From a virus, in IMG/VR virus record IMGVR_UViG_3300046001_007749, positions 1-24,267 of that record: 24,267 bases of DNA; one strand, written 5' to 3'. The position numbers and the translations under genes were made by a program. This document shows, in pieces, positions 1,371 through 16,450 of this stretch. Below the pieces are notes generated by a model. It worked only from the letters and a program-made list of their open reading frames with translations. It was not told the DNA's origin and searched no databases. Position 1 is the first letter of the stretch, and every line of letters begins with the position of its first letter.

Positions 1371-2381
1371 TTATCTTTTTAAATCTTCTGATTTTAATTC
1401 ATACAATACATAACCAAATATCTTATCAGGACCGGTAAAGTTTTTAGTAATCATTTCAGTTCTTTCTAAAATTTTTACTCTTAATTTACTAAGTTCTTTA
1501 TATTTAGATTGTAAAAATTGAGAAGTTTTAAATTTAGGATTGTTTTTAATATCTTCTAATTCATTTATTATCTTTTGTTCGTCTTCTGTTGGTTTAGAAT
1601 ACTCTTCTCTTAATTTATTTATCAGTTTATCTACATCACGAAAAAGCTTTAGAAAATCTGTTCCTGTATGTAAATTATCATCAATAATTAGAATTTTTTT
1701 TCCTTTCATAATACATTCAACTAATACATTATAAATTTGGGGTAGTGATTTATTTTTTATATTCGGATTAAAACCCACATTGTATTTAGAATGTAAACGC
1801 TGAATAATAGATGATTGAGTTTCTCCTGATTTTCTAATAGTGTATGGAGGTGGATTTTCTGCTCTTCTAGATAACCAATTAAGTATTGCTGTTTTTATTT
1901 TTCCTGATTCTTTATCAAATTGTTCCCAATCTACAGCATCATCTATTTTTTCATATTTTATTTTATCAATATAAATGGTTTTATCATCAGGGACACTATA
2001 TATTTTTTGTATGGTTTTTTTAAGTAAAACATTAAGATCTCCTGTAGATTCTAAAAATCCTATGTAATCAATAGAAGGTAGTCGAGATTTTAGATTAGAA
2101 ATTAGAAATTTTTCAAGTTCATCTTCCTTAATTAAATTAGCGTCTTTTTTTAAAGCGTCCTCAGATCTTTTTATATTTGTAATTTCGCTATCTGGAGTAG
2201 ATTCTAGTCCTATAAAAACATTATAATTATTTGTTTTTCTAATTTTACTTGAGACAATTAATTGTTCTCCTTCTATAGGTTTAATAGAAATATCTATTTT
2301 TTCTACATTATTTTCTTTTCCAAATGTTACTTTGGCTCCTTCATTAATTACATTTTTTAATATATCTATTAATTTAATCAT
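1371..2381 (-). CDS. Phosphoribosyltransferase-like protein with capsid-targeting-like leader
   Basis: This is a 336-aa protein. Residues 229-242 read KILIIDDNLHTGTD: a hydrophobic strand, two acidic residues, then TGT. This is the PRPP-binding signature of type I phosphoribosyltransferases, and the following ~90 residues are helical and charged. Other hallmarks of a named transferase are not evident, and the first 220 residues match nothing I know, so substrate and activity are open. The N-terminus MIKLIDILKNVINE followed by G resembles a T4 capsid-targeting sequence with an I-x-E cleavage site after residue 14. It is the last gene of the long block and ends just before the hairpin at 1281. 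The fold call is moderately sure; packaging into the head is inference. Confidence 0.7.
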   Translation of the reverse strand: MIKLIDILKNVINEGAKVTFGKENNVEKIDISIKPIEGEQLIVSSKIRKTNNYNVFIGLESTPDSEITNIKRSEDALKKDANLIKEDELEKFLISNLKSRLPSIDYIGFLESTGDLNVLLKKTIQKIYSVPDDKTIYIDKIKYEKIDDAVDWEQFDKESGKIKTAILNWLSRRAENPPPYTIRKSGETQSSIIQRLHSKYNVGFNPNIKNKSLPQIYNVLVECIMKGKKILIIDDNLHTGTDFLKLFRDVDKLINKLREEYSKPTEDEQKIINELEDIKNNPKFKTSQFLQSKYKELSKLRVKILERTEMITKNFTGPDKIFGYVLYELKSEDLKR

Positions 2382-2403
2382 TGTAAAACAATATTATATA
2401 GAT

Positions 2404-2862
2404 TTATTTCTTTTTTGCTTGATATTGACCTTCAGTAATTACACCTGCTAATTTTTGCATGTATAAGAAAGATTCATTTAATGATTCATTTGGCATTTCT
2501 TCTTCATATGTTGATTCTTCACCTAATGAAATTTCGTCAATGATTTCTTCTGGTTCTGGTGTTGCTTCTACTTTTTCAGTTTTTTTACCTTTTGAAGTAA
2601 GTTTTTCTTTTTGTTTTTGTAATTTTGTTAAACTTTTTTCTAGTGCTTTAATTTCAGAAGAAAGTTCTTTCATTTTATTTTTGTCAAACATCTTATGATA
2701 AATTTCATCGATACCTTCCATACTGATCATTTTTTTACGTTCATCAATAGCTTCTTGAGTTGCTTCCATTTTAGCTGTGTAAGCAGCCATGTCGCCTGCT
2801 TCATTAATACCATTAATGTATTCATTAATTGATTCGCGTATAAGTTGTTTTAAGTCTTTCAT
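2404..2862 (-). CDS. Coiled-coil acidic protein, candidate prohead core or internal protein
   Basis: This is a 152-aa, highly charged protein with no enzyme motif. The leader MKDLKQLIRESINE (1-14) resembles a capsid-targeting sequence, with possible protease sites at LIRE, SINE and GINE followed by AG. Residues about 55-95 have a heptad-like Lys/Glu/Leu pattern suggesting a coiled coil. An acidic stretch follows (about 100-125). The C-terminus holds YMQKLAGVITEG (134-145), with another I-x-E site, and a basic tail. The same MQKLA word opens the protein at 11183-11770. Short, coiled-coil, acidic and dotted with [LI]xE sites is what scaffolding or internal head proteins look like in T4-type phages, but there is no direct homology evidence here. 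An AT-rich promoter-like motif lies just upstream. Confidence 0.75.
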   Translation of the reverse strand: MKDLKQLIRESINEYINGINEAGDMAAYTAKMEATQEAIDERKKMISMEGIDEIYHKMFDKNKMKELSSEIKALEKSLTKLQKQKEKLTSKGKKTEKVEATPEPEEIIDEISLGEESTYEEEMPNESLNESFLYMQKLAGVITEGQYQAKKK

Positions 2863-2872
2863 TGTTTTTTAT

Positions 2873-2887
2873 TTTATTATAAATATA
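2873..2887 (-). promoter_or_regulatory. AT-rich promoter-like motif upstream of coiled-coil gene
   Basis: The coding strand reads ATATTTATAATAAAA, about 10-25 bases before the start at 2862. The same core recurs in other gaps (7021, 8886, 11783, 16491, 21409). TATAATA could act as a -10 element. No -35 is obvious. Confidence 0.35.
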
Positions 2888-2903
2888 TATTTTTTATTGT
2901 TTA

Positions 2904-4241
2904 TTACCATTTTCTGCAAGACCAATATCTTGCTTTAGTGCGTGGTCCTGGACTGTCACAGTTGTGTCTTGCTCTAAATGCTTTACGTCTTTCTGGATTG
3001 TTCTTTTTTATGTTCATTCTTTTACCTTTAGCTGATGATCCACCAAATCCAAAATTTACCTTAACTACTTTTCCTTTAGGATTTTTAACGTATACTTTAA
3101 ACTTTTTAACGTCACCTTGCATTGGTTTGCCAAGTTGTACTTTACGACCTTGATACTCTGCTTCCTGTAGTGGTTGTTTATATTCTCGCATAAACTGAAC
3201 AAATTCTTTTATGTCTTGTTCACTTTCAACATCATACTCATCTAAGTCTTCTAAACCAGTATCATCTTTTTTAAGATCTTTTTCAATTGCTTTCATTTCA
3301 CCCATAGCCCATTGTTTTTGAATAGTGGTTAATTTGTCATTGACTAAGTTTTCAATAAAGTTAATAAATTCATTTTCGCCTAACTTATACACCTCAGTAA
3401 AAAACAATTCTCTAACACGAGCATCATCAATGTTACTTTCAACATACAAATCATTTAATGCGTCATATATAAATTTACCATATTGAAGATCGCGTGGTTC
3501 ATTAGACAACTTATCTACTGCTCCTATGATTGCTTTATTTTGTTCTTTATCTTTGCCAAATCCTTGTGTTCCAACAATTTCATACAATCCTTTTACAATT
3601 TCATGAACTAACATTGGAAAACATATAGCTCTAGCTTTAACAACAAATTGATCTGCTTCTTCATCATATACCATTTCACTTTCACCACCTGCCATTTTTT
3701 GGCCTTGTTCTAAGGCAGCTAACATCATTGCAATAGCATTTTCATCATCATAAATTCCAAATACTTGTTTTAAAATTTCACCATACTTGTCTACTAAAGA
3801 ATCGTCTAAAAGATCTAAGTACTCTTTAAATAAGTAAAAAGCAAATGAGCCTCTAATTGAAGCACCTTGAGTAATACCATTTATAATACGACGTTTAGCT
3901 TTTAAAGCTTCTGGTGTATTAGCGTCTTCTACTGGTGTTTCATCTTCAGATGAAGATAAATTTATGTTGTCTTCTATTTTAGCATCAATTCTGATGTTAG
4001 CATAGTCTATAATAGGATAAGCTTGAGTGACCATATCTACAGCAATTTGAGATAAAACGTCACGATGTGGTTTTTCAGCTTCTATAATTTCGTCTAATAT
4101 TTCTTTAGAACTCATTAACGTTTGCATTAATGATTTATTGCCGAGCATTTGTTTTAAAGATTCACCTGATTTGCCTTTTAAGGCAGTCATTGTTTCTGGT
4201 TTGAATATTTTTTCATATTCAATTTCAAATAATTTTCCCAT
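2904..4241 (-). CDS. Phage protein with C-terminal RHNC/WSC basic module, possibly head-associated
   Basis: This is a 445-aa protein that I recognise only as a type common in T4-like environmental phages; its function is unknown. Residues 1-340 are helical and acidic. After PLQE at residue 360 comes a distinct basic module (361-445) starting AEYQGRK, containing KKFKVYVKNPKGKVVKV, then KKNNPERRKAFRARHNC and TKARYWSCRKW. The Cys and His residues suggest metal binding or a disulphide. LQE followed by A is a good T4 prohead-protease type site, so this tail could be released during head maturation. Its start overlaps the stop of the upstream gene (TAATG). MGKLFE at the N-terminus also has an L-x-E, but the leader is less typical than in the neighbours. 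Confidence 0.75.
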   Translation of the reverse strand: MGKLFEIEYEKIFKPETMTALKGKSGESLKQMLGNKSLMQTLMSSKEILDEIIEAEKPHRDVLSQIAVDMVTQAYPIIDYANIRIDAKIEDNINLSSSEDETPVEDANTPEALKAKRRIINGITQGASIRGSFAFYLFKEYLDLLDDSLVDKYGEILKQVFGIYDDENAIAMMLAALEQGQKMAGGESEMVYDEEADQFVVKARAICFPMLVHEIVKGLYEIVGTQGFGKDKEQNKAIIGAVDKLSNEPRDLQYGKFIYDALNDLYVESNIDDARVRELFFTEVYKLGENEFINFIENLVNDKLTTIQKQWAMGEMKAIEKDLKKDDTGLEDLDEYDVESEQDIKEFVQFMREYKQPLQEAEYQGRKVQLGKPMQGDVKKFKVYVKNPKGKVVKVNFGFGGSSAKGKRMNIKKNNPERRKAFRARHNCDSPGPRTKARYWSCRKW

Positions 4242-4495
4242 TATTTTTTAGATGTTAATTTTAAAAAACGAGCTGTAATTTTATCTATTTCAGTTTCTTT
4301 TAAAGATGTTGATGCTTTGGCAGGAATTGGAGATTCTTTAGGGATATCTTCTCTACCTATTTTACGTCTTGGTGTAGGTTTTGTAGGAATTTTTTCCTTT
4401 TCTATAGTTTTTTCTTTTTCTTTAGCGGGAACGTTTTCTTTTAAAGTCGCAGCTAATTCTTCCTTAATGATTTTTCTTAATGCGTCTAATTTCAT
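4241..4495 (-). CDS. Small basic, Pro/Lys-rich protein with capsid-targeting-like leader
   Basis: This is an 84-aa protein sandwiched between two larger genes and overlapping both: ATGA with the upstream gene and TAATG with the downstream one. The leader MKLDALRKIIKEELAATLKE contains two possible [LI]xE sites (IKE, residues 10-12; LKE, 18-20). The middle (about 23-60) is rich in Lys, Glu and Pro and probably disordered. The last 20 residues (LKETEIDKITARFLKLTSKK) form an amphipathic basic helix. Size, charge and leader match the general look of T4 internal proteins packaged with DNA, though no sequence family is recognised. The overlaps and compositional bias support a real gene. Confidence 0.75.
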   Translation of the reverse strand: MKLDALRKIIKEELAATLKENVPAKEKEKTIEKEKIPTKPTPRRKIGREDIPKESPIPAKASTSLKETEIDKITARFLKLTSKK

Positions 4496-7017
4496 TTTAT
4501 TTTTAGTTTTTGTAAAATTTTCTTTATTTCATTTGCCTCTCCAGGATAAGCAGCGGCGTGTACTTTTAACATTGTTTTAGTTCCTTCAGATATATTATTA
4601 GTTTGTATTACACTTGCAAGTTGACCTACTCTTGGTACATTATATGCTCTAGTGGCCATTACAATATAATGTCTAGCATCAGGTTGCATAGTTGCAAAGC
4701 CAATTACTGTTCCACTTGGAAGTCTGATTATGTAAAATCTACTTGGTCCTGCAGCAATCATACTTACTACTCTACCTATTGCATCTATAGAAGCATTACG
4801 TCTAGTATATGGAGTAAGAGTTCCACCTCTTATTCTACCTTTTATACTTGTTGGTAGAGAGTTGAAACCAGTTATTAATCCAGCGTTATCAATTATATTA
4901 TCTACCGCTGCATTAGCTCCTGCCACAGGTGCTGCTTGAGCAGCTGGTGCTGCTTGTGCTCTAGGTGCTCTAGGAGTAGGTGTTTGTGTTGTAGGTGCTG
5001 CTCCACCAAGTATTTGTCTTGCTTGAGCTGGTGAAATATTTACTCTAATTAACTTACTTTTACCAATTGCTTTACTAGCCTGAGGGTTTTGTTTATTAAG
5101 AAGTATATATTTATTTTCTATTACTACAGGCAAATATGTACTGTTTGCGGCCATAGGAGGATTTGCTTCTATGAATTTTTTATTACCACCTTGATACCAA
5201 TTTCTATCCGCATACCATTCTAATTGTTGATCATTAAACCCTATACCTTTACTTCTCAAGTAATCAAAGTAAGTTTTCCAATTTTCTGGTCTGAATGTGT
5301 TGGATGTTCCTTGGAAGTTTCTCCAATCATCACCTCCATAATTAAACTGATAGTCGGGAGTTGATGTTATAAATGTTTCAGCCATACCAAATATTGGAGT
5401 AGCAGATTCAGGATTAACTAATACTACATATCCCTCTCTTGTTCTTTTATTGTATGGGGTATTTTTTAGTATGTTAAGGAAAGAATCTTTGTCTATTGAA
5501 TTCGGAATATTTTCCTCACTAAATGCTACATTAACTGCTGAATCTTGAAAACCTGTGTTTTCAGTTTCATTGCTTAATATATTTTGTACTTCTTCACTGT
5601 CAAAGGGTATAGAACTTATTTTACCATCTTTAATTTTATAAGAAGTAAATGAATTTGAGTCCAACAATATTTTACCATCTTCTACATCTTTAACTACTAT
5701 AGCTGAATTTGGATCTTCTTCGGCTTTTACTATTATATTTTCAATAAAACTCTTATCAATTACTTCATTGTTTGTTAACTTAATAAGAGTGTTAAATGGT
5801 ATTTTATCTATTTCTGGGTAGTCAAGTAAGTATTTTGAGGTACGAGCGTTTAACTTGATGTTTGGATAATCATCTTCTGCTGTAAATACTCCTACTTGAA
5901 CGTCACCTGATGTGAATTTTAGTTTGATTATAGCTTCACCATTTTTGGTGATGTACATTCTTTCATCTGAGTCTAATTGCCATTTTTTTAAAGTTACCAA
6001 TAATTTTTTAACGTCAAACGGAATAGTTTCTTTACTTAATTCACTTGTATCAACATAAGTACGTAAATTGGCTACTATAGATTTTCTATCGTTAGTATTA
6101 AATTTATCTAAATGTTTAAGTAAAAGTGTAGAATCTAGTATACCTGGGGTTACAGCTATAAATGAAGCTAATTGTGGATACTTAGGTAAGTAATTCGCTG
6201 CAAATTCATTTTTAGATATATCATTGAATAAGTCACTTTTGTCTTTTCTTACTACTAAATATTGTTTTTTAGCTGCAAAAGGTAAAGATACCCACTGACG
6301 AATAGATATAGCTGTTTTACTAAATACATTAGTTGCTTTTTCTGTTGATGATAGAGGAACATATTTAAGCATACCCTTAATACCTGGGATGCTGTCTAAC
6401 CATGGGATGTCTGAGGTTAATTGGCTCCAACTCATTTTTGATGATTCATTTGGACTATTGTCTTTAGGAGTCCAAATGTACCTTTCACTCTCATCAGTTG
6501 TGTCTCTAACTTGAATAGCAACAAACGCTAATTTATCATCATCAATATATTCTGGGCTGTCATTTTTTATTAAGTAAAATGAAGGAAATCTTTTGCCTTC
6601 TGAAAATCTATAGTTACCAAATGAGCCTCTAGTAATACACCACGGAACGTCATCTCTATGTCTTCTACATAAATCTTCACTTCCTCCACTGTAAACAGTA
6701 ATACCATTTCCACTGTAAATTACATCTGGTCCTGTTTCTTCTTCTACTTCTGCTCCCTCTGATGATGTTACTAGTTTAATAAATTTTGGTAAAGGATAAT
6801 TGCGTAAAACTTTGTCTTCTATTTTAGGAGAATCTTTTAACTGATCAAAACGTTCAATGTATTTTCTAAGTTCAGCGTCTGTGATTTGGATGTTTAAATC
6901 ATCCGCTTCTTCTTTGAACTTATCCATCAACTTTTTAATTTCACCTTCAGAGTATTCGTAAAGGGGAAATAAGTTGTTTACAACATGTGTTATAAATTTA
7001 TGTATGTTCTTTTCCAT
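4492..7017 (-). CDS. Large multidomain phage protein with WCIT motif and Ala/Pro linker
   Basis: This is an 841-aa protein of unknown function. A helical N-terminus (1-85, with ITDAELRKYIERFDQLKDSP and NYPLPKFIKLVTSSEG) is followed by a globular segment in which GNGITVYSGGSEDLCRRHRD and VPWCITRGSFGNY (103-136) stand out. The WCxT-containing pattern recurs in large phage proteins I have seen, but I cannot attach an activity. The middle (about 230-680) is unassigned and contains aromatic-rich stretches such as GGDDWRNF and EWYADRNWYQGG. A Pro/Ala linker with PTPRAPRAQAAPAAQAAP separates a C-terminal domain of about 120 residues. The protein ends in a basic KKILQKLKIK. It probably opens a transcription unit, since an AT motif lies directly ahead of its start. 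It is translationally coupled (ATGA) to the small basic protein downstream. A large virion-delivered protein is one possibility. Confidence 0.75.
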   Translation of the reverse strand: MEKNIHKFITHVVNNLFPLYEYSEGEIKKLMDKFKEEADDLNIQITDAELRKYIERFDQLKDSPKIEDKVLRNYPLPKFIKLVTSSEGAEVEEETGPDVIYSGNGITVYSGGSEDLCRRHRDDVPWCITRGSFGNYRFSEGKRFPSFYLIKNDSPEYIDDDKLAFVAIQVRDTTDESERYIWTPKDNSPNESSKMSWSQLTSDIPWLDSIPGIKGMLKYVPLSSTEKATNVFSKTAISIRQWVSLPFAAKKQYLVVRKDKSDLFNDISKNEFAANYLPKYPQLASFIAVTPGILDSTLLLKHLDKFNTNDRKSIVANLRTYVDTSELSKETIPFDVKKLLVTLKKWQLDSDERMYITKNGEAIIKLKFTSGDVQVGVFTAEDDYPNIKLNARTSKYLLDYPEIDKIPFNTLIKLTNNEVIDKSFIENIIVKAEEDPNSAIVVKDVEDGKILLDSNSFTSYKIKDGKISSIPFDSEEVQNILSNETENTGFQDSAVNVAFSEENIPNSIDKDSFLNILKNTPYNKRTREGYVVLVNPESATPIFGMAETFITSTPDYQFNYGGDDWRNFQGTSNTFRPENWKTYFDYLRSKGIGFNDQQLEWYADRNWYQGGNKKFIEANPPMAANSTYLPVVIENKYILLNKQNPQASKAIGKSKLIRVNISPAQARQILGGAAPTTQTPTPRAPRAQAAPAAQAAPVAGANAAVDNIIDNAGLITGFNSLPTSIKGRIRGGTLTPYTRRNASIDAIGRVVSMIAAGPSRFYIIRLPSGTVIGFATMQPDARHYIVMATRAYNVPRVGQLASVIQTNNISEGTKTMLKVHAAAYPGEANEIKKILQKLKIK

Positions 7018-7020
7018 CTA

Positions 7021-7031
7021 TTATAAATATT
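7021..7031 (-). promoter_or_regulatory. AT-rich motif immediately upstream of the 841-aa gene
   Basis: The coding strand reads GAATATTTATAATAG directly before the ATG at 7017, so the core ATATTTATAA is only 4-5 bases from the start. If it is a promoter, the mRNA would be almost leaderless. It could instead be an A/U-rich translation-initiation element. The remainder of the gap 7018-7052 is AT-rich without other structure. Confidence 0.3.
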
Positions 7032-7052
7032 CTATATTTTCATTAAATTTAA

Positions 7053-7466
7053 TTATTTTGTTAAAGGACCACCTACTACCCATGCATCACAAGTTCTTTT
7101 TGCTGCGCATTTAAACTTTAAAAATCTACAATATCCTAAATCTCCTGCTTCTATTACGTCCATTGGATTTTCACTGCCTTGATCATTACCTATTCCTTTT
7201 GCTATACAATCTATTGTTTTCTTAGTGATGTCAAAAGCGGCACAGTTACCACAACGTGAAGTTTTAGCCTCTTCTATAGAGTCAAGTTTCCACATGTCTG
7301 CCTTTGCTTGCCAAAATTTTTCATTTGGTTCGTTTGGATTTAATGGTCCATAACCATACTCATTAATTGCCTTTTGTCTGTTTTGAAGATTAAGCTCTAT
7401 ATTTTGTGTTGGAGCAGGACATTTATTTATGTCAACTTCATTCAATATGTCTATTAGTTTTATCAT
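7053..7466 (-). CDS. Cys-rich small protein with capsid-targeting-like leader
   Basis: I choose the start at 7466 (MIKLIDILNE), not the in-frame ATG at 7481, because it gives a four-base ATGA overlap with the upstream stop and matches the leader of the genes at 2381 and 16450. The 137-aa product has the leader MIKLIDILNE with an L-x-E site at residue 10. The C-terminal half holds six cysteines: CGNC (72-75), C87, C113, C120 and C126, in a pattern ending YCRFLKFKC...RTCDAWVVGGP. This spacing suggests an Fe-S or zinc site; I recall similar Cys-rich proteins in other phages, some annotated as high-potential iron-sulfur-like, but the cluster type cannot be read from sequence. Packaging into virions is inferred from the leader. 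Confidence 0.75.
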   Translation of the reverse strand: MIKLIDILNEVDINKCPAPTQNIELNLQNRQKAINEYGYGPLNPNEPNEKFWQAKADMWKLDSIEEAKTSRCGNCAAFDITKKTIDCIAKGIGNDQGSENPMDVIEAGDLGYCRFLKFKCAAKRTCDAWVVGGPLTK

Positions 7467-7921
7467 TTTGTTTTGCCCCATTTTTTACCTTTACCTTTTG
7501 TTTTACATTGAGCGGGTGTAGGACGACATGATGGATACTTAGAGCGTTTTTCGTCTTTTTTTCTACCACATGCTTTACACTTACCATCACGACAAGTGTT
7601 ACAATCTACCCATCCACCTTCTTTACCTGGTGTACCTTTACGTTTAAACCATTTATAAAGTGATTCGTCTTCTTTAATTATTTCTTTAATTATGTCTTTT
7701 AATTTAGAATATCCAGATCCATAAGGAGCCGCTTTACCTGATTGAGGATTATCGGTTTCTTTTAAATCTTTCCAAATGTTTCCTTTACGACATCTAACAA
7801 TAGCTCCTGACTTGTAAGCAGATGGTTTATCGTACTTACGATCGGCAATTCGTTTACAACGATCTGCTTTTTTCTTTTCTTCAAGGAGAATTTGTTTAAG
7901 TATATCGATTAAACTAATCAT
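7463..7921 (-). CDS. Two-module Cys/Lys-rich protein, DUF5872-like C-terminus, with tandem leaders
   Basis: This is a 152-aa basic protein built as two similar units. Each unit opens with an amphipathic leader ending in [LI]xE: MISLIDILKQILLE (1-14) and YSKLKDIIKEIIKE (71-84). Module one contains DRCKRIADRKYDKPSAYKSG and VRCRKGNIW. Module two contains WFKRKGTPGKEGGWVDC, CRDGKCKACGRK, YPSCRPTPAQCK and a Lys/Gly tail, resembling the DUF5872-type segment (WVD...PCGR...YPxCRP) found in phages and giant viruses. Nine cysteines suggest metal binding, and the high charge suggests nucleic-acid contact. If a prohead protease cuts at both leaders, two separate small basic proteins would result. It overlaps both neighbours (TAATG upstream, ATGA downstream). 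Function is unknown. Confidence 0.8.
   Translation of the reverse strand: MISLIDILKQILLEEKKKADRCKRIADRKYDKPSAYKSGAIVRCRKGNIWKDLKETDNPQSGKAAPYGSGYSKLKDIIKEIIKEDESLYKWFKRKGTPGKEGGWVDCNTCRDGKCKACGRKKDEKRSKYPSCRPTPAQCKTKGKGKKWGKTK
7670..7711 (-). other. Internal copy of the capsid-targeting-like leader
   Basis: Codons 71-84 of the 152-aa gene encode YSKLKDIIKEIIKE, which has the same hydrophobic spacing and [LI]xE ending as the N-terminal leaders in this block. It precedes the second Cys-rich module and has no Met, so it is not an alternative start. It may be a relic of gene fusion or a processing site. Confidence 0.5.
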
Positions 7922-8883
7922 TATACTCCTACGTTTATCATTTGGGGATTGTCAACTCTAAACTTAACTACTCCTCTTATGTTGTTAATGTCTTGTATAA
8001 CTTTTTTCACAGTTTCTATGTCAAATTTACCATCTTTTAAATATGGATAAGGATCAATTTTTACTGCTAATTTATTGTATGAATAGCTTTTATTAGGTAT
8101 GCGTGGTGTGTACTCATGAGCGTCCACTGTTGTAATGCCTGTTACAGATCTAATGTCTGACAGTACTTCTTTTTGAAATAAAAGATCATTGTTAGTTACT
8201 AACAGTCCTTCAACTTTATAAAGTTTTTCAGCAGAATTTTCACTTAATATTCTTTTGATTTTGCCCTTATTTATAACATATTTGTAAGATTCATTAAGAC
8301 CTAGTAAATATTCATAGTCATAGTACACACCATAGTCTCTTAAAACTTTTCTTAATTCTTCAGCGTCTTTATCAATTACTGCTAATGCAGCGTCTTGGAA
8401 TATAGGTGAATCTTCTCCATGATCTTCTTTAATTTTCTTTAAAAGATTATGAAAGGGTACTGCTGAATTTTTTGATGTTACTGAAATGTCTCTTTTTGAT
8501 CCCATTTCATTTTCAAATAATTGCAAGTCTAATGGTACTTTTTTACCCTTATACATTCCATGTTCACCTAAATTACTTTCAACTAGTACTTTTTTATCTG
8601 CTTCATTTACATGAATAGCTTCACGTGAGTACAAATAACGAGCTTCAGCCCATAAGTTTAAAAATGCTGGTGAACCATATGGAAGTCGACTCTCAATAAG
8701 CGATAACTTGTTGTCAACATGATACTTCATATCCTTTGACATTACTATGCGAGCGTTTAGATTCTCGTTGATTACCGGTCCTTTATTGCCAACATTCTCA
8801 CAAGAGTGACAACCACAGTTGCATGAGTCTTTTTTAGGTGGAGTAGATAATATTTCTCTTATAAGTTTTGTTATACGGTTCAT
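7921..8883 (-). CDS. Phage protein with N-terminal Cys cluster after a leader
   Basis: This is a 320-aa protein. MNRITKLIRE (1-10) is a short amphipathic leader ending in I-x-E. Soon after comes a dense cluster, CNCGCHSC (21-28), likely to bind metal. Residues about 45-125 (MSKDMKYHVDNKLSLIESR, the GSPAFLNLWAEARYLY region and EHGMYKGKKVPLDL) and the C-terminal part (about 215-315, with VEGLLVTNNDLL, SDIRSVTGITTVDA and LAVKIDPYPYLKDG) form two segments I recognise as recurrent in environmental phages but cannot assign to a function. The C-terminal segment alternates strands and helices like a small ferredoxin-like fold; that is a guess. The stop overlaps the next start (TAATG). A 14-base gap carrying the AT motif lies upstream. 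Confidence 0.75.
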   Translation of the reverse strand: MNRITKLIREILSTPPKKDSCNCGCHSCENVGNKGPVINENLNARIVMSKDMKYHVDNKLSLIESRLPYGSPAFLNLWAEARYLYSREAIHVNEADKKVLVESNLGEHGMYKGKKVPLDLQLFENEMGSKRDISVTSKNSAVPFHNLLKKIKEDHGEDSPIFQDAALAVIDKDAEELRKVLRDYGVYYDYEYLLGLNESYKYVINKGKIKRILSENSAEKLYKVEGLLVTNNDLLFQKEVLSDIRSVTGITTVDAHEYTPRIPNKSYSYNKLAVKIDPYPYLKDGKFDIETVKKVIQDINNIRGVVKFRVDNPQMINVGV

Positions 8884-8885
8884 GG

Positions 8886-8897: not shown

Positions 8898-9962
8898 TTA
8901 AGGTGTGTAAGCAAATCTAGGAAATTTATCAGAAAAAGTTGAAATTTTAAGATTATTTTCATTTTTATAATTATCATCATACTTATTTATTTGTTTAAAA
9001 GTATAAGGAAAATTTGATGAAATAACCATTATTGGTTTAGATTTTTCTATGTATTCTTTTGCTAAATTATTTGCTATATGATTTAAAAGTCCATCAGAGA
9101 TTTGTAATTGTTGATCTTCAATCTTAGGAACATAATTTCCATAAAAATCTTTAATAATATCATTAATTAGTTCAGTTGATACTTTTTCTTCTTTCCAATA
9201 GTTTTGTAAAGTACGAGGCCAAAGTTCACCAGATTTAAATTCAAGATTTGTTTTTTCCTTTAAATAAGTTGAAGGTTTACTTCCATACTTTGAAATTTCA
9301 AATGGAACTAATTTAAATGCATTTCCTTGTTTTATTTCTATAGATTTTCCATTTATTTTTACATCTCCAGTATTTTCTTCTTTTTTTCCACCTCGAGCAG
9401 TGCAACCTTTAAGAAAAGTAATTAAAGCCATTTCTCCTTTTCCTGTACTTCTACCATACAATTCAATTAATTCAGTAATAAAATCTTTAGATAAAGAAGT
9501 AGGGGCAAATAATTCTTCTAAATTTCCACTTTCTGGTAAGATAGTGATTGTTGGATTTTTTAAATATGCATTTAATTTTTTATATTCACCTAAATCAAGA
9601 GAAATTCTATAAATAGCATTAGCATAGTTATCAGCTAATTTTTTTTCATTTTTTAGTATTTGTAAAATACTATTTTTTGAATCTTTAACTTCATCTTCAT
9701 CGTATATATCTTCTTTTTTATTAGCTTTTTTTAACATTTTTAATATCCTTTTTTTAACTTCATAATCATCTAAAGTAGAAATAAGTTGTTTAATTTCATC
9801 ATCAAGAGGAAATTCTATGTCCAATTGTTGTTCTTGTAAGTCAACTCCTAACTCACTCAATATTCTCTCCATTATTAAAATATCCTGTTCATTATTCATG
9901 TCAGGATATCCTTTTGGAAATTTATATGAGTATTTTTTTAAAAATAAGTCTAATGTATCCAT
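8898..9962 (-). CDS. Restriction-endonuclease-like fold (PD-(D/E)XK-type) protein
   Basis: This is a 354-aa protein. The central part has STGKGEMALITFL (E177), then TGDVKINGKSIEIKQGNAFK with D200 and E209-I-K211. An early Glu, then Asp, then a strand with ExK is the arrangement of the PD-(D/E)XK nuclease core, so a DNA-cleaving or DNA-binding role is plausible. The N-terminus (FLKKYSYKFPKGYPDMNNEQD) is a segment I associate with related phage proteins, and residues about 50-110 are Lys/Glu-rich and helical. The C-terminal 130 residues are unassigned. It overlaps the upstream stop (TAATG). The first residues MDTLDLFLKKYSYKF are amphipathic but without an early [LI]xE; the first such sites (LSE, LQE) come at about 36-44. 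The nuclease fold is an inference from motif spacing. Confidence 0.65.
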   Translation of the reverse strand: MDTLDLFLKKYSYKFPKGYPDMNNEQDILIMERILSELGVDLQEQQLDIEFPLDDEIKQLISTLDDYEVKKRILKMLKKANKKEDIYDEDEVKDSKNSILQILKNEKKLADNYANAIYRISLDLGEYKKLNAYLKNPTITILPESGNLEELFAPTSLSKDFITELIELYGRSTGKGEMALITFLKGCTARGGKKEENTGDVKINGKSIEIKQGNAFKLVPFEISKYGSKPSTYLKEKTNLEFKSGELWPRTLQNYWKEEKVSTELINDIIKDFYGNYVPKIEDQQLQISDGLLNHIANNLAKEYIEKSKPIMVISSNFPYTFKQINKYDDNYKNENNLKISTFSDKFPRFAYTP

Positions 9963-10471: not shown

Positions 10472-10473
10472 TA

Positions 10474-10974: not shown

Positions 10975-10977
10975 GAT

Positions 10978-11148
10978 TTACTTTGCTTTTGCTTCAGCAA
11001 CTGATGCTTTATTGTAAGCAGCGATAGTTTTTTTCATTTCTGATAATGCCTTGCGAGCTCTACCTTTTGCTGCTTTACTTGTTTCTTCGTGATTAGTTTT
11101 TGCTGTTTCATACAACCCACTAATTTGTTCAAATAGTTCTTGTGTCAT
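10978..11148 (-). CDS. Histone H1-like (Hc1-type) DNA-binding protein
   Basis: This is a small 56-residue gene: it starts with ATG at 11146-11148 and stops with TAA at 10978-10980. The product begins MTQELFEQISGLYETAKTN, has a central KAAKGRARKALSEMKKT and ends AYNKASVAEAKAK. The order (amphipathic helix, KAAxxRARKA, then a Lys-rich helix with K-x-SVAE) closely follows the histone H1-like proteins related to chlamydial Hc1 that are common in Bacteroidota, which are about the same length. Such proteins bind DNA non-specifically and compact it. In a phage it could help condense DNA in the head or alter the host nucleoid. A 34-base A/T-rich leader precedes it, and the following gene starts three bases after its stop. 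Confidence 0.8.
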   Translation of the reverse strand: MTQELFEQISGLYETAKTNHEETSKAAKGRARKALSEMKKTIAAYNKASVAEAKAK

Positions 11149-11182
11149 TTTGTTTTTGTTTTTGATTATTATTTATTGTTTA

Positions 11183-11770
11183 TTATGCTTCTGCTAATAT
11201 TCTAGCATTTAAATAGTCGTAAATATCTTTTGCTTCAAAGCCTTTACTTATTAAATCGTCAGATATTGCACTAGCCGCGTCTATGAAACGATTGTAAGCT
11301 TCATTTGAAACTGCTAAGTCTATGTCGTTATATATTTCGTCGTTTATATCTTCCATACCTTCAGCAACAGCTTGTTGTCCACCACCTAATACTTGATCTC
11401 TCACAAGCATTGTAATTGTGTTTCCAATTTGAGTTACCAATTTAGCATCTCCTAATTCTTTAGCGCTAGCAAATGCTTTTTGCAATGAATCTTGAATTGA
11501 CTTTACTGTTGGATTAATGTCAGCAGCGCTGCCCATTTCTGGTGCCATTGTGTCTGTAGAAGCTTCAGTTGAAGGTTCAACTGGTGTGTCTATGTTAAGT
11601 TCCACATCTTCTTGTGGCGCTACATCTTCAGATTTTTTCTTTTTTGCTTCATTTATTTCAGCTAAAATCATTTCTTTGATTTGTCTTTTGAATGCTGATT
11701 TAGTAGTTAACTCATTAATTGACTTTTTACCAAAAGCCAATTTTTGCATATGTTCAAATTGTTTGTCCAT
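11183..11770 (-). CDS. MQKLA-type protein with multiple candidate prohead-protease sites
   Basis: This is a 195-aa protein without enzyme motifs. The N-terminus has EHMQKLAFGKKSINE (6-20), sharing MQKLA with the C-terminus of the coiled-coil protein at 2404-2862. A second amphipathic segment, AFKRQIKEMILAEINEAKKKK (26-46), contains IKE, LAE and INE followed by A. A Pro/Ser/Thr/Glu-rich acidic linker (about 47-85) leads into a helical C-terminal domain (about 88-195, with VKSIQDSLQKAFASAKELGD and NDEIYNDIDLAVSNEAY). The clustered [LI]xE sites near the N-terminus suggest processing in the prohead, so a core or internal protein is plausible. Function is unknown. A strong example of the AT motif lies in the 30-base gap upstream. 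Confidence 0.7.
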   Translation of the reverse strand: MDKQFEHMQKLAFGKKSINELTTKSAFKRQIKEMILAEINEAKKKKSEDVAPQEDVELNIDTPVEPSTEASTDTMAPEMGSAADINPTVKSIQDSLQKAFASAKELGDAKLVTQIGNTITMLVRDQVLGGGQQAVAEGMEDINDEIYNDIDLAVSNEAYNRFIDAASAISDDLISKGFEAKDIYDYLNARILAEA

Positions 11771-11779
11771 TGTTGTATT

Positions 11780-11794
11780 TTTATTATAAATATT
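11780..11794 (-). promoter_or_regulatory. AT-rich promoter-like motif upstream of MQKLA-type gene
   Basis: The coding strand reads AATATTTATAATAAAAA, ending about 10 bases before the start at 11770. It is nearly identical over some 20 bases to the motif upstream of the 217-aa structural gene at 21396. The match extends beyond the core into the following AAAATACAA, which favours a shared signal over chance AT-richness. Confidence 0.4.
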
Positions 11795-11800
11795 GTACTT

Positions 11801-12421
11801 TTATTTCTTATCGTGTAAATAGTCAGTTAATAAACTACCTATTGCACCTACTTTTTGTCTCAATAAGATCCATTCTTCTAATGTTAATTTATGCTCTTTT
11901 CCATAATAAGACACAGTTAAAGTACCTATAAAGTTATCTGTTAAGTCTTTTATAGTTAACATGTAAAATGATTTAGTTTTATAATTTTTACCTGCAACCG
12001 GAAATAAGCCACAATCTACTGTATTTTCTTTACAATTAGGAATGTCAATTTCACCGTATTTATACAATACTGAGAATACTTTAGGAAATAAGGACACAGG
12101 AATATTTTGAAATATTTCTTTTATAGATGTAGCTTTATCAGTGGTGCGTTCATAAAATATGCTAAATTTCTTAATAGATTTACCTGTAGGATAAAAGTGA
12201 CCTCCATTGTGGAATTGTGAAATGCATATTCTATCACATTTTAATTCTTCCATCATTATTTCAAGTTGTGTGTCTATTTTTTCATCTGAATTGATAGATT
12301 CTCCTAGTAAGTCTTTTGGTGATTTTTTATGAATAAAATTTACCTTTATCCATTCTACTAATACTGGTGCTATTAATGCTGTTAATAATGCTATTATTAC
12401 TGTTAAACTTGTTGCATTCAT
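11801..12421 (-). CDS. Membrane-anchored GAF-like domain protein
   Basis: This is a 206-aa protein. Residues 5-23 (SLTVIIALLTALIAPVLVE) form a single hydrophobic segment next to a basic stretch (KVNFIHKKSPK), consistent with an N-terminal membrane anchor. The rest looks like one alpha/beta sensor-type domain: CDRICISQFHNGGHFYPTGK (62-81), then FSIFYERT, FPVAGKNYKTKSFYML and IGTLTVSYYG, in the order seen in GAF-like domains. I recall comparable phage proteins with the ISLFHNGG motif. The ligand is unknown. It sits three bases after the upstream stop. A membrane protein inside a block of putative virion cargo is unusual; it may act at the host inner membrane during entry or lysis control, but that is speculation. 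Confidence 0.65.
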   Translation of the reverse strand: MNATSLTVIIALLTALIAPVLVEWIKVNFIHKKSPKDLLGESINSDEKIDTQLEIMMEELKCDRICISQFHNGGHFYPTGKSIKKFSIFYERTTDKATSIKEIFQNIPVSLFPKVFSVLYKYGEIDIPNCKENTVDCGLFPVAGKNYKTKSFYMLTIKDLTDNFIGTLTVSYYGKEHKLTLEEWILLRQKVGAIGSLLTDYLHDKK

Positions 12422-12424
12422 AAA

Positions 12425-12994
12425 TTATTTTTTGAGGTTTTGTAAATAATTAATTGTTTCTTCTTTATTTTCCAACAACTTTTTCTTTGCAGAACCAACC
12501 CAATTTTCAATGTCTCCGGCTTCCGTTACATATGATTCATTTGAATTATTAATTACTTCATCCATCCAAACAGTATAGTCTTTAATAGTATGATCTATGT
12601 CTGAATTGATGATGTTTTTTTCATACTCTTCCCATAAACCTAATATACGCAATTCTGTTTCAAAGTCTATTTGACAGTTGAAGCATCTCTTATATTGTAT
12701 GTAAAATAGTTTATCGTTTTTGTTTTTCATTAAATTAGTGCAACAAGGACAAAATAGTGGAAGGGAAACTTCCTTCTTTGCTTTATCTAATTTAGTTAAA
12801 TTTTGTTTGATTCCATTTTTGATAGTCCATGTACGACCATCTAATTCCCACACATCTCCTTCTTCATGAAACTCTTGTTTTTTTTCATAACCTATTCCAG
12901 TAGTGGTTTTTTCACCATGTTTACCTTGAACAAGGTTGCGAAGACGTTGAATGTCTTTTTGTTGGAAATCTTTTTTGAGAACGTTTTCTGACAT
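12425..12994 (-). CDS. Zinc-ribbon phage protein of unknown function
   Basis: This is a 189-aa protein. Two CxxC pairs (C82/C85 in FCPCC and C104/C107 in RCFNC), 18 residues apart, make a zinc ribbon. The N-terminal part has LRNLVQGKHGEKTTTGIGY and EEGDVWELDGRTWTIKNGIKQNLTKLD (45-70). The C-terminal part is helical, with NNSNESYVTEAGDIENWVGS. The whole arrangement is one I recognise as well conserved among environmental T4-like phages, without a known role. Zinc ribbons of this type often contact nucleic acid or proteins. It begins six bases after the preceding stop and lies in the same operon. ITE/VTE-like tripeptides near 155 do not coincide with a domain break. Confidence 0.75.
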   Translation of the reverse strand: MSENVLKKDFQQKDIQRLRNLVQGKHGEKTTTGIGYEKKQEFHEEGDVWELDGRTWTIKNGIKQNLTKLDKAKKEVSLPLFCPCCTNLMKNKNDKLFYIQYKRCFNCQIDFETELRILGLWEEYEKNIINSDIDHTIKDYTVWMDEVINNSNESYVTEAGDIENWVGSAKKKLLENKEETINYLQNLKK

Positions 12995-12999
12995 AACTA

Positions 13000-13752
13000 T
13001 TATTTTATATTATCATTTAAAAAATAGAAAAAATTGGATTTAGTAGCAAATCTTTTACCTATTTCAGGTACTTCATTTTTTAATATATCATAAATTTGGA
13101 ATGACATTTTTGGATCTATGTTAAAGAGCTTATCTTCGTTTAATTTACTTTCATCTTCTTTGTCTATTGTTTCTAATGAATAATCTTTACTTGAAATAGC
13201 TTTTGCTTCTTGTGCGGCCTTTAAAATCTTATCGATATCTTTTTTATCTGATGTGTTAAATGTTAAAGTAGAATCGTCTACTTTTTTAGGTTTTATGTAT
13301 GTTTTAGGTTTTACATTTAAATAAGCTACCACTAAGTCTTGATGTTTTTTATTTTTAATAGGAAAAGCAAATATTGTTTTGTTACTTTTATCTTTTTTAA
13401 TTATAAAATCTTTTCTTTCAAATCTATCTTTAACTGAGTTTTCTATTTCATTGTATAACTTAATACCATTCTCATCATAAATTGTCTTATTTGTATTAAT
13501 AAACTTATCACTAGTTGGCTTATCACCAAATACTTTTCTTTCGAAATCTTTTAAATTGTCTGATTTATTAATAAAAGCATCACTAAAATACTTTGGGTCT
13601 TCTAATATTCTTATAATATCATCAGCAGTTACATTTCCATGAGTAGTTAATTTTAACTCTTTAGGAATGTCCATTCTTCGCAATCCACTTTCTTCTCCTC
13701 CACCATTAGTGGTAGGTTCTTCATTTTCTACTAATTTGTACTTGTATTTCAT
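13000..13752 (-). CDS. Charged phage protein of unknown function
   Basis: I place the start at 13752 (MKYKYKLVENEEP), giving the TAATG one-base overlap typical of this block. A longer in-frame opening from 13833 would add 27 basic residues read from inside the upstream gene and is less likely. The 250-aa product is Lys/Asp-rich. Segments visible are GGGEESGLRRMDIPKELKL (about 18-36), TADDIIRILEDPKYFSDAF, a KTIFAFPIKNKKHQDLVVAYLNV strand region (about 135-157), SLETIDKEDESKL and a C-terminal helical EVPEIGKRFATKSNFFYFL. No enzyme motif is evident. The early KLVEN contains an L-x-E, but the leader is short and not clearly amphipathic. Confidence 0.65.
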   Translation of the reverse strand: MKYKYKLVENEEPTTNGGGEESGLRRMDIPKELKLTTHGNVTADDIIRILEDPKYFSDAFINKSDNLKDFERKVFGDKPTSDKFINTNKTIYDENGIKLYNEIENSVKDRFERKDFIIKKDKSNKTIFAFPIKNKKHQDLVVAYLNVKPKTYIKPKKVDDSTLTFNTSDKKDIDKILKAAQEAKAISSKDYSLETIDKEDESKLNEDKLFNIDPKMSFQIYDILKNEVPEIGKRFATKSNFFYFLNDNIK

Positions 13753-14282
13753 TATAGTCCTAGTGATTTTAATTCGTTTAATGTATTTTCTGTTGAAGTA
13801 TGTAATATACCTATGCCACCTCTTGAATTCCATTCATTGATAGTGTTAGGCATGTCGTCGATAAGTATTCGATTTTTCTTGGAATAATTTTGTTTGTTTT
13901 TTCTTTCTGCTAATATTAATTTAGTTCCAGGTATATTTTTCTTAACCCATAAACTTTTTCCATATCGTGATGATGAATCTTGTGATGGTGCAGATAGTAA
14001 TGATGGTTTATACTTACTAATGTATGTCCATAGTTGTTTACCGTCTGACATCCAAGGCATTTCTGACCAAAACTGTGCACCTATGCCATCTATTAACTCC
14101 CAAAATTTCTTAGTACCATTTTTAACTTCATATTCACTAGGCAACATTCCACCAAACTGTTCAAAACGTCTGTCAAAGTCACACAATACTCCATCCATAT
14201 CACAATATATTGTATATTGTGAAATTTGAGCTGCTTGTGCTTCTTCTTTAAGTTGTTTGTATAGGTCTGTTAATTTGTACAT
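13752..14282 (-). CDS. HAD-superfamily nucleotidase/phosphatase with capsid-targeting-like leader
   Basis: This is a 176-aa protein. YCDMDGVLCDFD (26-37) is HAD motif I (DxD: nucleophile D28 and acid/base D30). LLSAPS (about 95-100) fits motif II. A Lys/Arg-rich LAERKNKQNYSKKN is followed by ILIDDMPNTINEW with the motif IV acidic pair. The set fits the small 5'(3')-deoxyribonucleotidase-like group found in phages, which removes phosphate from nucleotides; substrate and activity are inferred. The first 19 residues, MYKLTDLYKQLKEEAQAAQ, are an extension before the HAD core, with an L-x-E site at residue 13 and an Ala-rich spacer, in the style of the other leaders here. The ATG follows the upstream stop directly (TAGATG). 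Confidence 0.85.
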   Translation of the reverse strand: MYKLTDLYKQLKEEAQAAQISQYTIYCDMDGVLCDFDRRFEQFGGMLPSEYEVKNGTKKFWELIDGIGAQFWSEMPWMSDGKQLWTYISKYKPSLLSAPSQDSSSRYGKSLWVKKNIPGTKLILAERKNKQNYSKKNRILIDDMPNTINEWNSRGGIGILHTSTENTLNELKSLGL

Positions 14283-15485
14283 CTAAAATTCTGATTCTCC
14301 AGATTGAACTTTTTTTAATACAACAAATGAACCATTAATATTTCTATTTTCACTATCTTTTGTTATAAAATTTACTTTAGCATCTTTTCTAGAATATCCT
14401 GGTAATTTATTTGTTTTAGTTAAATCATTATAAACATTTCCATATCCGCTACCTTCTATATTTGATATTCCTATATAATTAGGTTTTTCTTTTGAAACAA
14501 AATCTAATATAATCTTATACATAGTAGATAATATTTTTATATAATTTTTACCTCCTGCTTTTCCAGTTTGAAGATTTGAATTTTTATTTCCTATTTCATC
14601 AAAATTTATATTATAAAAATCACCATCTTTATAAGGATTTGGAAATTTTGAAATTGAATAAGTATAACCTAAATCACCTACCTTAAATTTTCCACTAAAT
14701 ACATCACCCTCTATTTCAGCAGCATTATTAGGATTAAGTAATATCTCATTTATTTTTAATTTATACAATTGAGTTACTAAATCTGTTGTTAATAATGCTG
14801 GTGGGTTAAATTTAGGTAAATCGGATTCTATAATCCATTCATTTAATGGTTTAGGATTTTTAATTGAATCTTCCCAATTTCTGAATGTAATATTTCCTTT
14901 TAAATATGCTTCTTCTTCTAATTCTTCTAAACTGTCATCTTCGTTTGTGTTGGTAGTGTTGATGTTATTTAATCTACCTTCATTATCTTGCATACGATGA
15001 ATCATCTCATGAGCATATGAACGTAAAATGTCTTTTGGATGTCTGTTTAATGTAAATAAAGTGATTGAACAGTTGTTTGGATTGTAATGTGCCGTTTTAC
15101 CTAAAATATTTTCAGCGTTTTTAGAGTCGTTGCTTATACTTATTATACGTGGTAAGGGTTTGATGTTCATACCTTGATCAATCATATACTTAGTTAAAGA
15201 TTTTAACGCTTCTTTAAAGGTTGATGGTGTGTTTAATGATTCTTTTATTGAATTTTTTGGATTTAAAAAATATTCATTGTAAAAATATTCTAAGGCTTCT
15301 AATTTTTCTCCAGTTAACTTATTTTTTAAATAAATGTATACTCTTTCATGATCTGAGTCTTTTTTTAAAGCATCAAAAACATCTGAGTGTAAAGCCCAAT
15401 ATTTAATTTCTGAGGGTTGTAATTCGTTTATATCTTCATTCTCTAATAAAAGTGAAGTTATAAGATATTTAGTTAAATCATTCAT
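14283..15485 (-). CDS. HExxH metalloprotease fused to C-terminal acetyltransferase-like domain, with leader
   Basis: This is a 400-aa protein. MNDLTKYLITSLLLE (1-15) is an amphipathic leader ending in L-x-E. The central domain carries SYAHEMIHRMQDNEGRL, with H159-E160-x2-H163 as the zinc site, and downstream acidic residues (EELEEEAYLKGNITFRNW, E187-E192) that could supply the third ligand. This is the zincin-type metalloprotease pattern. The C-terminal 150 residues (from about IEGDVFSGKF) contain VGDLGYTYSISKF, GKAGGKNYIKILSTMYKIILDFV and PNYIGISNIEGSGYGNVYNDL, an order reminiscent of GNAT-like or related alpha/beta domains in phages; that part is uncertain. It overlaps the upstream stop (TAATG). 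The protease could act on host proteins after entry or on virion proteins; the sequence does not say. Confidence 0.8.
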   Translation of the reverse strand: MNDLTKYLITSLLLENEDINELQPSEIKYWALHSDVFDALKKDSDHERVYIYLKNKLTGEKLEALEYFYNEYFLNPKNSIKESLNTPSTFKEALKSLTKYMIDQGMNIKPLPRIISISNDSKNAENILGKTAHYNPNNCSITLFTLNRHPKDILRSYAHEMIHRMQDNEGRLNNINTTNTNEDDSLEELEEEAYLKGNITFRNWEDSIKNPKPLNEWIIESDLPKFNPPALLTTDLVTQLYKLKINEILLNPNNAAEIEGDVFSGKFKVGDLGYTYSISKFPNPYKDGDFYNINFDEIGNKNSNLQTGKAGGKNYIKILSTMYKIILDFVSKEKPNYIGISNIEGSGYGNVYNDLTKTNKLPGYSRKDAKVNFITKDSENRNINGSFVVLKKVQSGESEF

Positions 15486-16450
15486 TATGTTGCGAATTCT
15501 TTAATTTTTTCTACTGCTTGATCAACTGTAACTTCACTTCTAACTACATCTTTGAATGTATCAAATAATGCTTGATACATTTGATCTTCTTCCTCTTTAG
15601 ATTTTAGGAATGCTTTTTGAATTGAGTCTAAGTGTTCTTTAAAACCATTGGACCTACCTTGTTTATTCATAGGCATAAAATTATTATTTTTAACATAATA
15701 TTCTAATGCTTTTTCTTTAAGTTTTCTTTCTTCATAACTATTTAAAGTGCCTAATTGTTTAGCTTTTTCATTAAAATCAGCTTCTACTTCTTGAGGTAAA
15801 GATGTAGGTTCTTTCTTTTGTGTGACTGTGTAAAAATCTGGATTGTTTTTAGTTTCAGTATTTATAAATTGCTTGATTGCTTCTGGACTTTCTTGTGCTG
15901 CTTTATTAAAACCATCAATTATATTTTGATCAACATCTGGAGTATTGTTTACTAAAATAAAATTATTACCAAATGCTTCTTGATATGTTTTGATTAATTC
16001 AGGACTGTATGATTTAATCCATGTTAATAATACTGCTTTACCAAAAAGACTTTCTTCACCTTCTTCTTTAGCTCGTTTAAAGTTTTGATAATATGCTACC
16101 ATTGGATGAGCATATATCATAACCATTAATGTGTCATATCCTGATGCTTTAACTCTTAATACACTGGTTGGATTATTAGCGGTAGTGTCCCAAATAATGT
16201 TAGATTTATTTTCTTGTGATATTTCCGCGTCTAATTCTTTTTCAGTTGCAATAGATGAACCACGAAGATTTTTATATAATTCTGAGTCTTTATTTCTGGC
16301 AAATTTATCTGGATTAAAATACTTCCACTCTTTTGTAAAATCTTTAATTTTATTATAGAAAAATGTTTTTCCAGAACCCGCACTCCCCGCCATAATTATG
16401 GCTTTTGGATTGTCAACTATTTCTTTTAAGAGATGTATAAGCTTTATCAT
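15485..16450 (-). CDS. P-loop kinase (zeta-toxin-like) with capsid-targeting-like leader
   Basis: This is a 321-aa protein. After the leader MIKLIHLLKE (L-x-E at residue 10) and a short IVDNPKAIIMA strand comes a Walker A motif, GSAGSGKT (22-29). YFNPDKF follows (D48), with an NIIWDTTANN strand (about 84-93) and a lid-like QNFKRAKEEGEESLFG. N-P-D after the P-loop and the overall order resemble zeta-toxin-type nucleotide kinases, which phosphorylate small molecules such as UDP-sugars; other phage P-loop kinases look similar, so the substrate is open. The last 150 residues are helical and charged with no known motif. It follows a 69-base gap that holds a hairpin and an AT motif, so it probably heads the long cargo operon running left to about 11801. 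Confidence 0.8.
   Translation of the reverse strand: MIKLIHLLKEIVDNPKAIIMAGSAGSGKTFFYNKIKDFTKEWKYFNPDKFARNKDSELYKNLRGSSIATEKELDAEISQENKSNIIWDTTANNPTSVLRVKASGYDTLMVMIYAHPMVAYYQNFKRAKEEGEESLFGKAVLLTWIKSYSPELIKTYQEAFGNNFILVNNTPDVDQNIIDGFNKAAQESPEAIKQFINTETKNNPDFYTVTQKKEPTSLPQEVEADFNEKAKQLGTLNSYEERKLKEKALEYYVKNNNFMPMNKQGRSNGFKEHLDSIQKAFLKSKEEEDQMYQALFDTFKDVVRSEVTVDQAVEKIKEFAT

Follow-up and report, generated by a model that had tools for sequence, protein, structure and literature searches.

Why would a run of unrelated genes on one viral genome fragment begin with variants of the same short peptide? The question is raised by IMG/VR virus record IMGVR_UViG_3300046001_007749, analysed here in its entirety (24,267 bases, hereafter the window), a genome fragment of a T4-like virus with almost all of its genes on the minus strand. 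A first-pass annotation had listed nine genes whose proteins open with a leader ending in [LI]xE, and all nine are present on the minus strand, with the starts and N-termini it gave. As a set, these leaders are confirmed to exceed chance expectation. Judged by sequence, they are very probably capsid-targeting propeptides of the T4 kind, which would load unrelated enzymes into the phage head. The nearest isolate is the 160-kb Flavobacterium phage vB_FspM_immuto (hereafter immuto), with a conserved 217-aa protein that is 75% identical and has relatives encoded by at least 445 IMG/VR stretches; its annotation includes a T4-like portal gp20, a prohead core serine protease and gp23. The clade of the window resembles the published Far-T4 phages (PMC4360716).

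The T4 internal proteins IPII and IPIII begin MKTYQEFIAE/A (T4 record; throughout, a slash marks a cut or candidate cut), and within the T4 capsid-targeting sequence (CTS) residues 4 and 7 mainly steer targeting, residues 8 and 10 processing (PMC9026906). Class A leaders share this register, M-x-x-Φ4-x-x-Φ7-[LI]8-x-E10 (Φ, hydrophobic), over 10 residues (MIKLxDILxE, MNRITKLIRE and similar). In total there are at least four interchangeable tag classes on many unrelated cargos: class B is a 12-residue leader (MKKSELKQIIKEE..LxE), frequently carrying a further LxE around residue 20, class C reads FDLKKFLxEN, and class D reads [FW]xRMQxLAGxITE. Several leader genes have a second [LI]xE a few residues downstream, which is the likely cut. 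Also present in the window are tag parts absent from the earlier list, namely an internal site in gene 7921-8883, an LQE/A site in gene 2904-4241, and class D tags both in gene 11183-11770 and in the C-terminal part of gene 2404-2862. The leaders, tags and sites, together with the primase gene, are the following:

2340..2381, minus strand: leader MIKLIDILKNVINE/G on gene 1371-2381; homolog L133 retains MKLISILKNIVE/G
2431..2469, minus strand: class D tag FLYMQKLAGVITE/G close to the C-terminal end of gene 2404-2862; in relatives, this tag closes the gp22 scaffold
2821..2862, minus strand: class B-like leader MKDLKQLIRESINE on gene 2404-2862
3162..3173, minus strand: PLQE/A site ahead of the C-terminal module (AEYQGRKVQLGKP..., phrog_7595) of gene 2904-4241
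4460..4495, minus strand: leader MKLDALRKIIKE on gene 4241-4495 (84 aa, pI 9.9); a second site, TLKE, ends at residue 20
7437..7466, minus strand: 10-residue leader MIKLIDILNE in T4 register on gene 7053-7466; homologs have a class C leader instead (MDNFDLRKYLAE). An in-frame ATG also lies upstream at 7481 (MGQNKMIKL...), and homologs use either methionine
7880..7921, minus strand: leader MISLIDILKQILLE on Cys-rich gene 7463-7921 (DUF5872-like)
8239..8250, minus strand: internal ILSE/N site separating the two modules of gene 7921-8883
8854..8883, minus strand: 10-residue leader MNRITKLIRE in T4 register on the Cys-rich two-module gene 7921-8883
9933..9962, minus strand: N-terminus MDTLDLFLKK of gene 8898-9962, with hydrophobic register 4/7/8 kept and E10 missing
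11711..11770, minus strand: class D N-terminus MDKQFEHMQKLAFGKKSINE of gene 11183-11770
13726..13752, minus strand: weaker candidate leader MKYKYKLVE on gene 13000-13752; the N-termini of homologs are similar
14244..14282, minus strand: leader MYKLTDLYKQLKE on the HAD-type 5'-nucleotidase gene 13752-14282
15441..15485, minus strand: leader MNDLTKYLITSLLLE on gene 14283-15485
16421..16450, minus strand: 10-residue leader MIKLIHLLKE in T4 register on the zeta-toxin-like kinase gene 15485-16450
17305..18234, minus strand: DNA primase, which in relatives bounds the leader block on one side

The enrichment over shuffled N-termini on which the first-pass annotation had made its proposal depend is present. 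Specifically, [LI]xE ends at residue 8–16 in 12 of the 27 window genes, compared with a mean of 4.8 in shuffled N-termini (p = 0.0004) and of 3.8 in internal-segment controls, where 0 of 5,000 draws reach 12. A stricter form, with three or more additional hydrophobics and neither P nor G ahead of [LI]xE, is found in 7/27 (shuffled 1.6, p = 0.0004; internal 0.48), and the core Φ-x-x-Φ-[LI]-x-E within residues 2–20 in 8/27 (shuffled 0.9). Among all related open reading frames (ORFs), 613 of 3,525 contain the core motif (shuffled 81), which spikes at residues 10 and 12 at ~50 per mille over a background of 1.7; because many of the pooled stretches were fetched for their leader-bearing genes, the fair figures are those for whole contigs, with observed versus shuffled counts of 17 versus 3.7 in immuto, 16 versus 5.6 in G007, 13 versus 3.2 in both G002 and G001, and 14 versus 2.1 in G006.

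A position matrix trained on the nine window leaders, the profile search that the annotation had suggested, recovered the leader in related contigs and immuto. At a score of at least 9, reached by 0.6–0.8% of control segments, matches number 12 in G007 (275 ORFs), 11 in G002 (203), 14 in G001 (194), 11 in G008 (54), 10 in G009 (56), 4 in G006 (106) and 9 in immuto (228). These matches concentrate in the interval bounded by the primase gene and the major capsid gene, where 53 of 272 ORFs reach the score, compared with 18 of 844 elsewhere. The regional clustering holds in G002, G001 and G007 (each p ≤ 0.002) and immuto (0.01) and is not significant in the short contigs and G006 taken singly; since the genomes share homologs, a p-value pooled over them overstates their independence. 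In 209 related stretches, this score is reached by 532 of 3,627 unique ORFs, whose mature parts form 109 BLAST groups; ~25–30 of the ORFs are expected as chance matches, and some groups (for example, terminase) are false. The terminase N-terminus of some relatives (MSQDLKQIIKEEYIKC) was rejected as a real leader, its E being often Q or D in homologs.

What is conserved is the peptide. An origin of the leaders in a DNA-level repeat was rejected, as identical class A peptides are encoded by DNA differing at a mean of 3.1 of 30 nt, which implies that selection acts on the peptide. Window gene 7053-7466 carries MIKLIDILNE and its homologs in L178 and L216 an FDLRKYLAE leader, and comparable swaps of leader class on one cargo occur in clusters 4, 7, 9 and 22. 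Some homologs lack the leader and start directly at the site: MVSLVQLLNEIINE/GGNVFGTTSSIKKEY corresponds to MGGNVFSSTAPIKKEH in immuto (MVSLVQLLNEIINE/GGNVF... versus MGGNVF...), and L232, L238 and L242 have a leaderless start of the same kind. A secretory signal peptide, sought as an uninterrupted hydrophobic core of 7–15 residues with an AxA-like site, was likewise rejected, as in the leaders hydrophobic residues alternate with charged or polar ones up to a final LxE. In L291, L301 and L309, the class B leader pattern occurs 4–5 times within a few kb on the same strand; these repeats are probably tandem arrays of leader-bearing genes.

The same sites also stand between the modules of fused proteins. 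An NMNAT-like module within a large L001 protein is preceded by FKGLVKELIMPLLE/DEF (LVKELIMPLLE/DEF), and as a separate gene in G009 it starts MNSLVKELIQPLLE/ATT. In window gene 7921-8883, ILSE/NSAEKLYKVEGLL lies between the two modules, the second of which stands alone in relatives as a separate gene, under a separate leader (G008, MDKLRKLIREEVIKALKE/GSEEKLYRVDGLL). [LIVMF]xE lies within 22 residues upstream of 48 of the 49 internal junctions of the modules examined (null 23–57%), a set picked after inspection; in an unselected set of junctions, the site is found in 94 of 357 (null 8.7%). Large fused NTase/NMNAT/HAD/zincin-type proteins are encoded at L001:3-2933, L061:15894-18935 and immuto26A_183, each with several unrelated domains in one chain, and some of these domains are separate leader-bearing genes in the window, a pattern of gene fission or fusion around the same sites.

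A T4-type prohead protease, which the first-pass annotation required, is encoded by the relatives. Peptidase_S77 is present in immuto, in the long relatives G002, G006 and G007, and in G005, G008, G009 and G011, with protease and leader block on one contig in G008 and G009; it was not found in G001, a 124-kb fragment. Among contigs of at least 65 kb found only through the class B DNA pattern, 12 of 17 have Peptidase_S77, compared with 1 of 20 in a control set of contigs retrieved with a DNA polymerase pattern (Fisher 5.7e-5). The relatives also encode gp22 and gp23. The gp22 scaffold ends in a class D tag in 6/6 genomes compared (for example, QVARWQKLAGIK and AFARMRELAGLKK); in several genomes the gp22 N-terminus also reaches a leader score. 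The annotation had held that structural genes lack the leader; in the relatives, by contrast, head core genes have the motif, at the gp22 N-terminus and in small core genes. The major capsid protein (MCP) of relatives has a conserved [IL]VxE (IVSE, LVIE, LVTE, LVVE) near residue 60, about the position of the T4 gp23 cut; this site suggests that the protease of the clade would accept V besides L or I at P3.

An experimental reference point is found among cultured relatives. Pelagibacter phage HTVC008M and Methylophilales phage Melnitz have a similar block with NMNAT-like, HAD and phrog_7595 modules, and that of HTVC008M also has a P-loop kinase-like gene. In the T4-like cyanophage S-SCSM1, the corresponding block lies between the helicase-primase gene and a DNA primase and encodes several virion proteins, including the ORF91 NMNAT, that were detected by mass spectrometry (MS) in CsCl-purified virions (PMC9602691), and NMNAT-like proteins and kinases were found in several cyanophage virions (PMC10665884). 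The ORF91 NMNAT opens with a leader of T4 form, MKSFLQFLKE/A, and further cyanophage NMNATs start MKSFFQFLFE/S, MRSFLTFLTE/A, MKKFSAFLKE/A and MKKFSAFLTE/A. The homologous S-CBWM1 NMNAT (2e-7) was rejected as support for the leader rule, its annotated N-terminus lacking a leader. The 69-aa S-SCSM1 ORF93 (L496:11626-11835), a virion protein detected by MS, has a C-terminal CTS-like string, RTFKEFLEYIE, which by analogy with T4 Alt is possibly a C-terminal propeptide.

The cargos behind the leaders are diverse, and most have no family match in Pfam, PHROGs or NCBIfam. In the window, they include a zeta-toxin-like kinase (8.6e-9), a HAD-type 5'-nucleotidase (phrog_2643, 3e-26), a zincin-type HEMIH protein, a PRPP-motif protein and Cys-rich proteins, with motifs at these positions:

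1656-1694, minus strand: PRPP-binding-like motif ILIIDDNLHTGTD in gene 1371-2381
14997-15011, minus strand: HEMIH zincin-type motif in gene 14283-15485
16364-16387, minus strand: Walker A of the zeta-toxin-like kinase gene 15485-16450

For gene 1371-2381, an AlphaFold model from a two-row alignment was uninformative (pLDDT 45), so the PRTase label comes from the motif. Leader-bearing cargos of relatives include ART-PolyVal (6.1e-9), a Fe/Mn superoxide dismutase (1e-30), a HAD protein, an ABC1-kinase-like protein and NMNAT-like nucleotidyltransferases. The ART-PolyVal cargo fits the packaging reading because T4 Alt, a packaged and injected ADP-ribosyltransferase (ART; PMC5512222), is of the same activity class. 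The superoxide dismutase gene, L207:4067-4768, is complete (Pfam 1e-30) with the leader MIKLTDILKE, making its product a candidate head-packaged enzyme.

Three other explanations can be envisioned. In the first, which we consider unlikely, the leaders are propeptides cut by gp21 whose bearers are chiefly parts of the prohead core or scaffold that are degraded and leave the head, rather than an enzyme arsenal. The small charged leader-bearing proteins of genes 4241-4495 and 2404-2862 do resemble core proteins, and gp22 and small genes between gp20 and gp21 have the same tags, but many cargos carry enzyme signatures (zeta kinase, HAD 5'-nucleotidase, ART, Fe/Mn superoxide dismutase, kinase-like) and the NMNAT with a T4-form leader was detected by MS in S-SCSM1 virions. 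Even less probable is that amphipathic leaders send proteins elsewhere, to the inner membrane, a replication compartment or the baseplate, with [LI]xE incidental. Amphipathic N-terminal helices can bind membranes, and a leader-like gene adjoins baseplate genes in immuto (81525-81944); against this destination stand the leaderless homologs that start at the site, the linkers that retain it, the common tag of gp22 and the co-occurrence of S77 with the class B leader. The immuto gene (L083:31525-31944; also G001_51376, G002_15682 and G007_144244) is conserved, has a long class B-like helix, MKLDLLKKLIKEAVKEAVREE, and may encode a tail protein, which would limit the head reading of class B. Finally, that Lys/Ile/Leu/Glu-rich N-termini of an AT-rich genome yield such strings by composition is refuted for the set as a whole, and has next to no probability, by the far lower counts in composition-preserving shuffles and internal segments, the strong bias to one genome region and the synonymous DNA differences beneath the same peptide, though [LI]xE alone is common (4.8/27 expected) and single genes such as terminase, for which individually chance is not refuted, match fortuitously.

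Capsid targeting has to be weighed against several points of its own. Head packaging in this clade is predicted from sequence, and gp21, gp22 and gp23 are absent from the window, itself a fragment. First sites are often followed by I, V or E, with no strong A/G/S bias at P1' among related ORFs, whereas T4 and cyanophage leaders have A or S there, which makes the exact cut uncertain; the MCP sites read [IL]VxE, not strictly LxE. Homologs are not independent, so pooled p-values come out too small, and the motif matches by chance on terminase and on the conserved gene beside the baseplate genes, for which reason the motif by itself does not prove any single gene. CsCl-purified virions may contain contaminants, co-purification being a caveat of the authors (PMC9602691). 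Among the other S-SCSM1 proteins detected by MS, which are mostly shell and tail parts, few show a clear leader; a leader is therefore not required for every virion protein. Head loading and trimming of the leader proteins are well supported, if indirectly, and their injection into the host would follow by analogy with T4 IPI and Alt.

The CTS and gp21 principle is already known from T4, and it has been proposed that T4-like phages can package various proteins through the CTS (PMC9026906). Like IPI, IPII and IPIII, the clade combines the 10-residue register M-x-x-Φ-x-x-Φ-Φ-x-E and a predicted L/I-x-E cut rule with a shared tag before unrelated mature parts, an S77 protease, gp22 and gp23 (PMC3012670, PMC9026906); its leaders span ~10–19 residues with hydrophobics at 4 and 7/8, end in L/I-x-E, precede 109 BLAST clusters of mature parts and accompany a gp21-type protease in relatives. 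The system would thus work like the T4 CTS, of which it is a strongly supported candidate rather than a proven member. It differs in its leader sequences (MIKLxDILxE, MKKSELKQIIKEE and others), in the presence of several interchangeable classes, in a cargo range of tens of families, many of them enzymatic, and in sites that double as linkers in fused precursors. Alt, too, is an ART packaged in the head, and gp21 cuts it at either end (PMC9026906); the clade has leader-bearing ART-PolyVal genes; ART-PolyVal (PF18760) is, however, a separate Pfam family, likened to Alt by activity class. Polyvalent proteins are also multi-domain, with predicted host entry alongside the DNA and ART, kinase, peptidase and NTase domains (PMC5512222), and the fused NTase-NMNAT-HAD-zincin protein of the clade looks like one. 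Release there is proposed to be by embedded peptidases (PMC5512222), whereas the linker sites here fit a separate prohead protease, and the domains are frequently single genes, each with its own leader. In phiKZ and SPN3US, a gp21-like protease similarly removes propeptides of inner-body or ejection proteins after a short motif ending in E, which in phiKZ is S/A-x-E (PMC9026906). With the virion NMNATs and kinases of cyanophages S-SCSM1, S-SZBM1, S-CBWM1 and S-CREM2, the clade shares NMNAT-like cargo, the T4-form leader of S-SCSM1 and a block between gp41 helicase and primase; in the passages drawn on, MS detection is not tied to a targeting sequence (PMC9602691, PMC10665884).

In the proposed mechanism, a short amphipathic N-terminal helix with the core Φ-x-x-Φ-[LI]-x-E would let an unrelated protein co-assemble with the prohead core containing gp22, and the gp21-type protease of the phage would cut after [LIV]xE as the head matures. 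Once released, the enzyme would remain trapped in the head and probably be ejected with the DNA at infection, and linker sites would allow one multi-domain precursor to be cut into several packaged enzymes. What is new is the set of tag classes of the clade, their interchangeability, the link between class D and the end of gp22, the great breadth of cargo and the linker use in polyvalent-like precursors. On balance, we lean slightly towards a modular, open-ended form of head loading, in which at least four interchangeable tags, one matching the gp22 end, together with protease-cut linkers, would permit a changing set of dozens of host-takeover enzymes to be packaged and injected, singly or as precursors split in the head. 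Injected proteins act ahead of any phage gene expression and are hard to spot from sequence. If capsid targeting is correct, an N-terminus or linker alone would predict packaged effectors among hundreds of unknown Far-T4 and T4-like genes, including ADP-ribosyltransferases, kinases, NAD-related enzymes and nucleases, along with their mature start points; it would also supply several short tags with which foreign proteins could be loaded into phage heads, and would account for NMNATs in cyanophage virion proteomes.

Gene 8898-9962 (minus strand) has a conserved N-terminus that holds the hydrophobic register of the leader with E10 usually missing, and a PD-(D/E)xK-nuclease-like motif, GDVKINGKSIEIK, at 9330-9368; a few homologs do have E10 (MDKLTKFLYE, MNIFDKLIKE). 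In T4 IPIII, D at position 10 permits targeting and blocks processing. Elsewhere in the window, the minus-strand stretch 3-1228 contains the start of a gene with a candidate FAD-binding-like N-terminus (VVIGAGVAGINFA) and a UvdE UV damage endonuclease (TIGR00629, 3e-62). Immuto carries 7-deazaguanine DNA modification genes annotated QueC, QueD, QueE, FolE, DpdA and QueF (L082:18607-37015).

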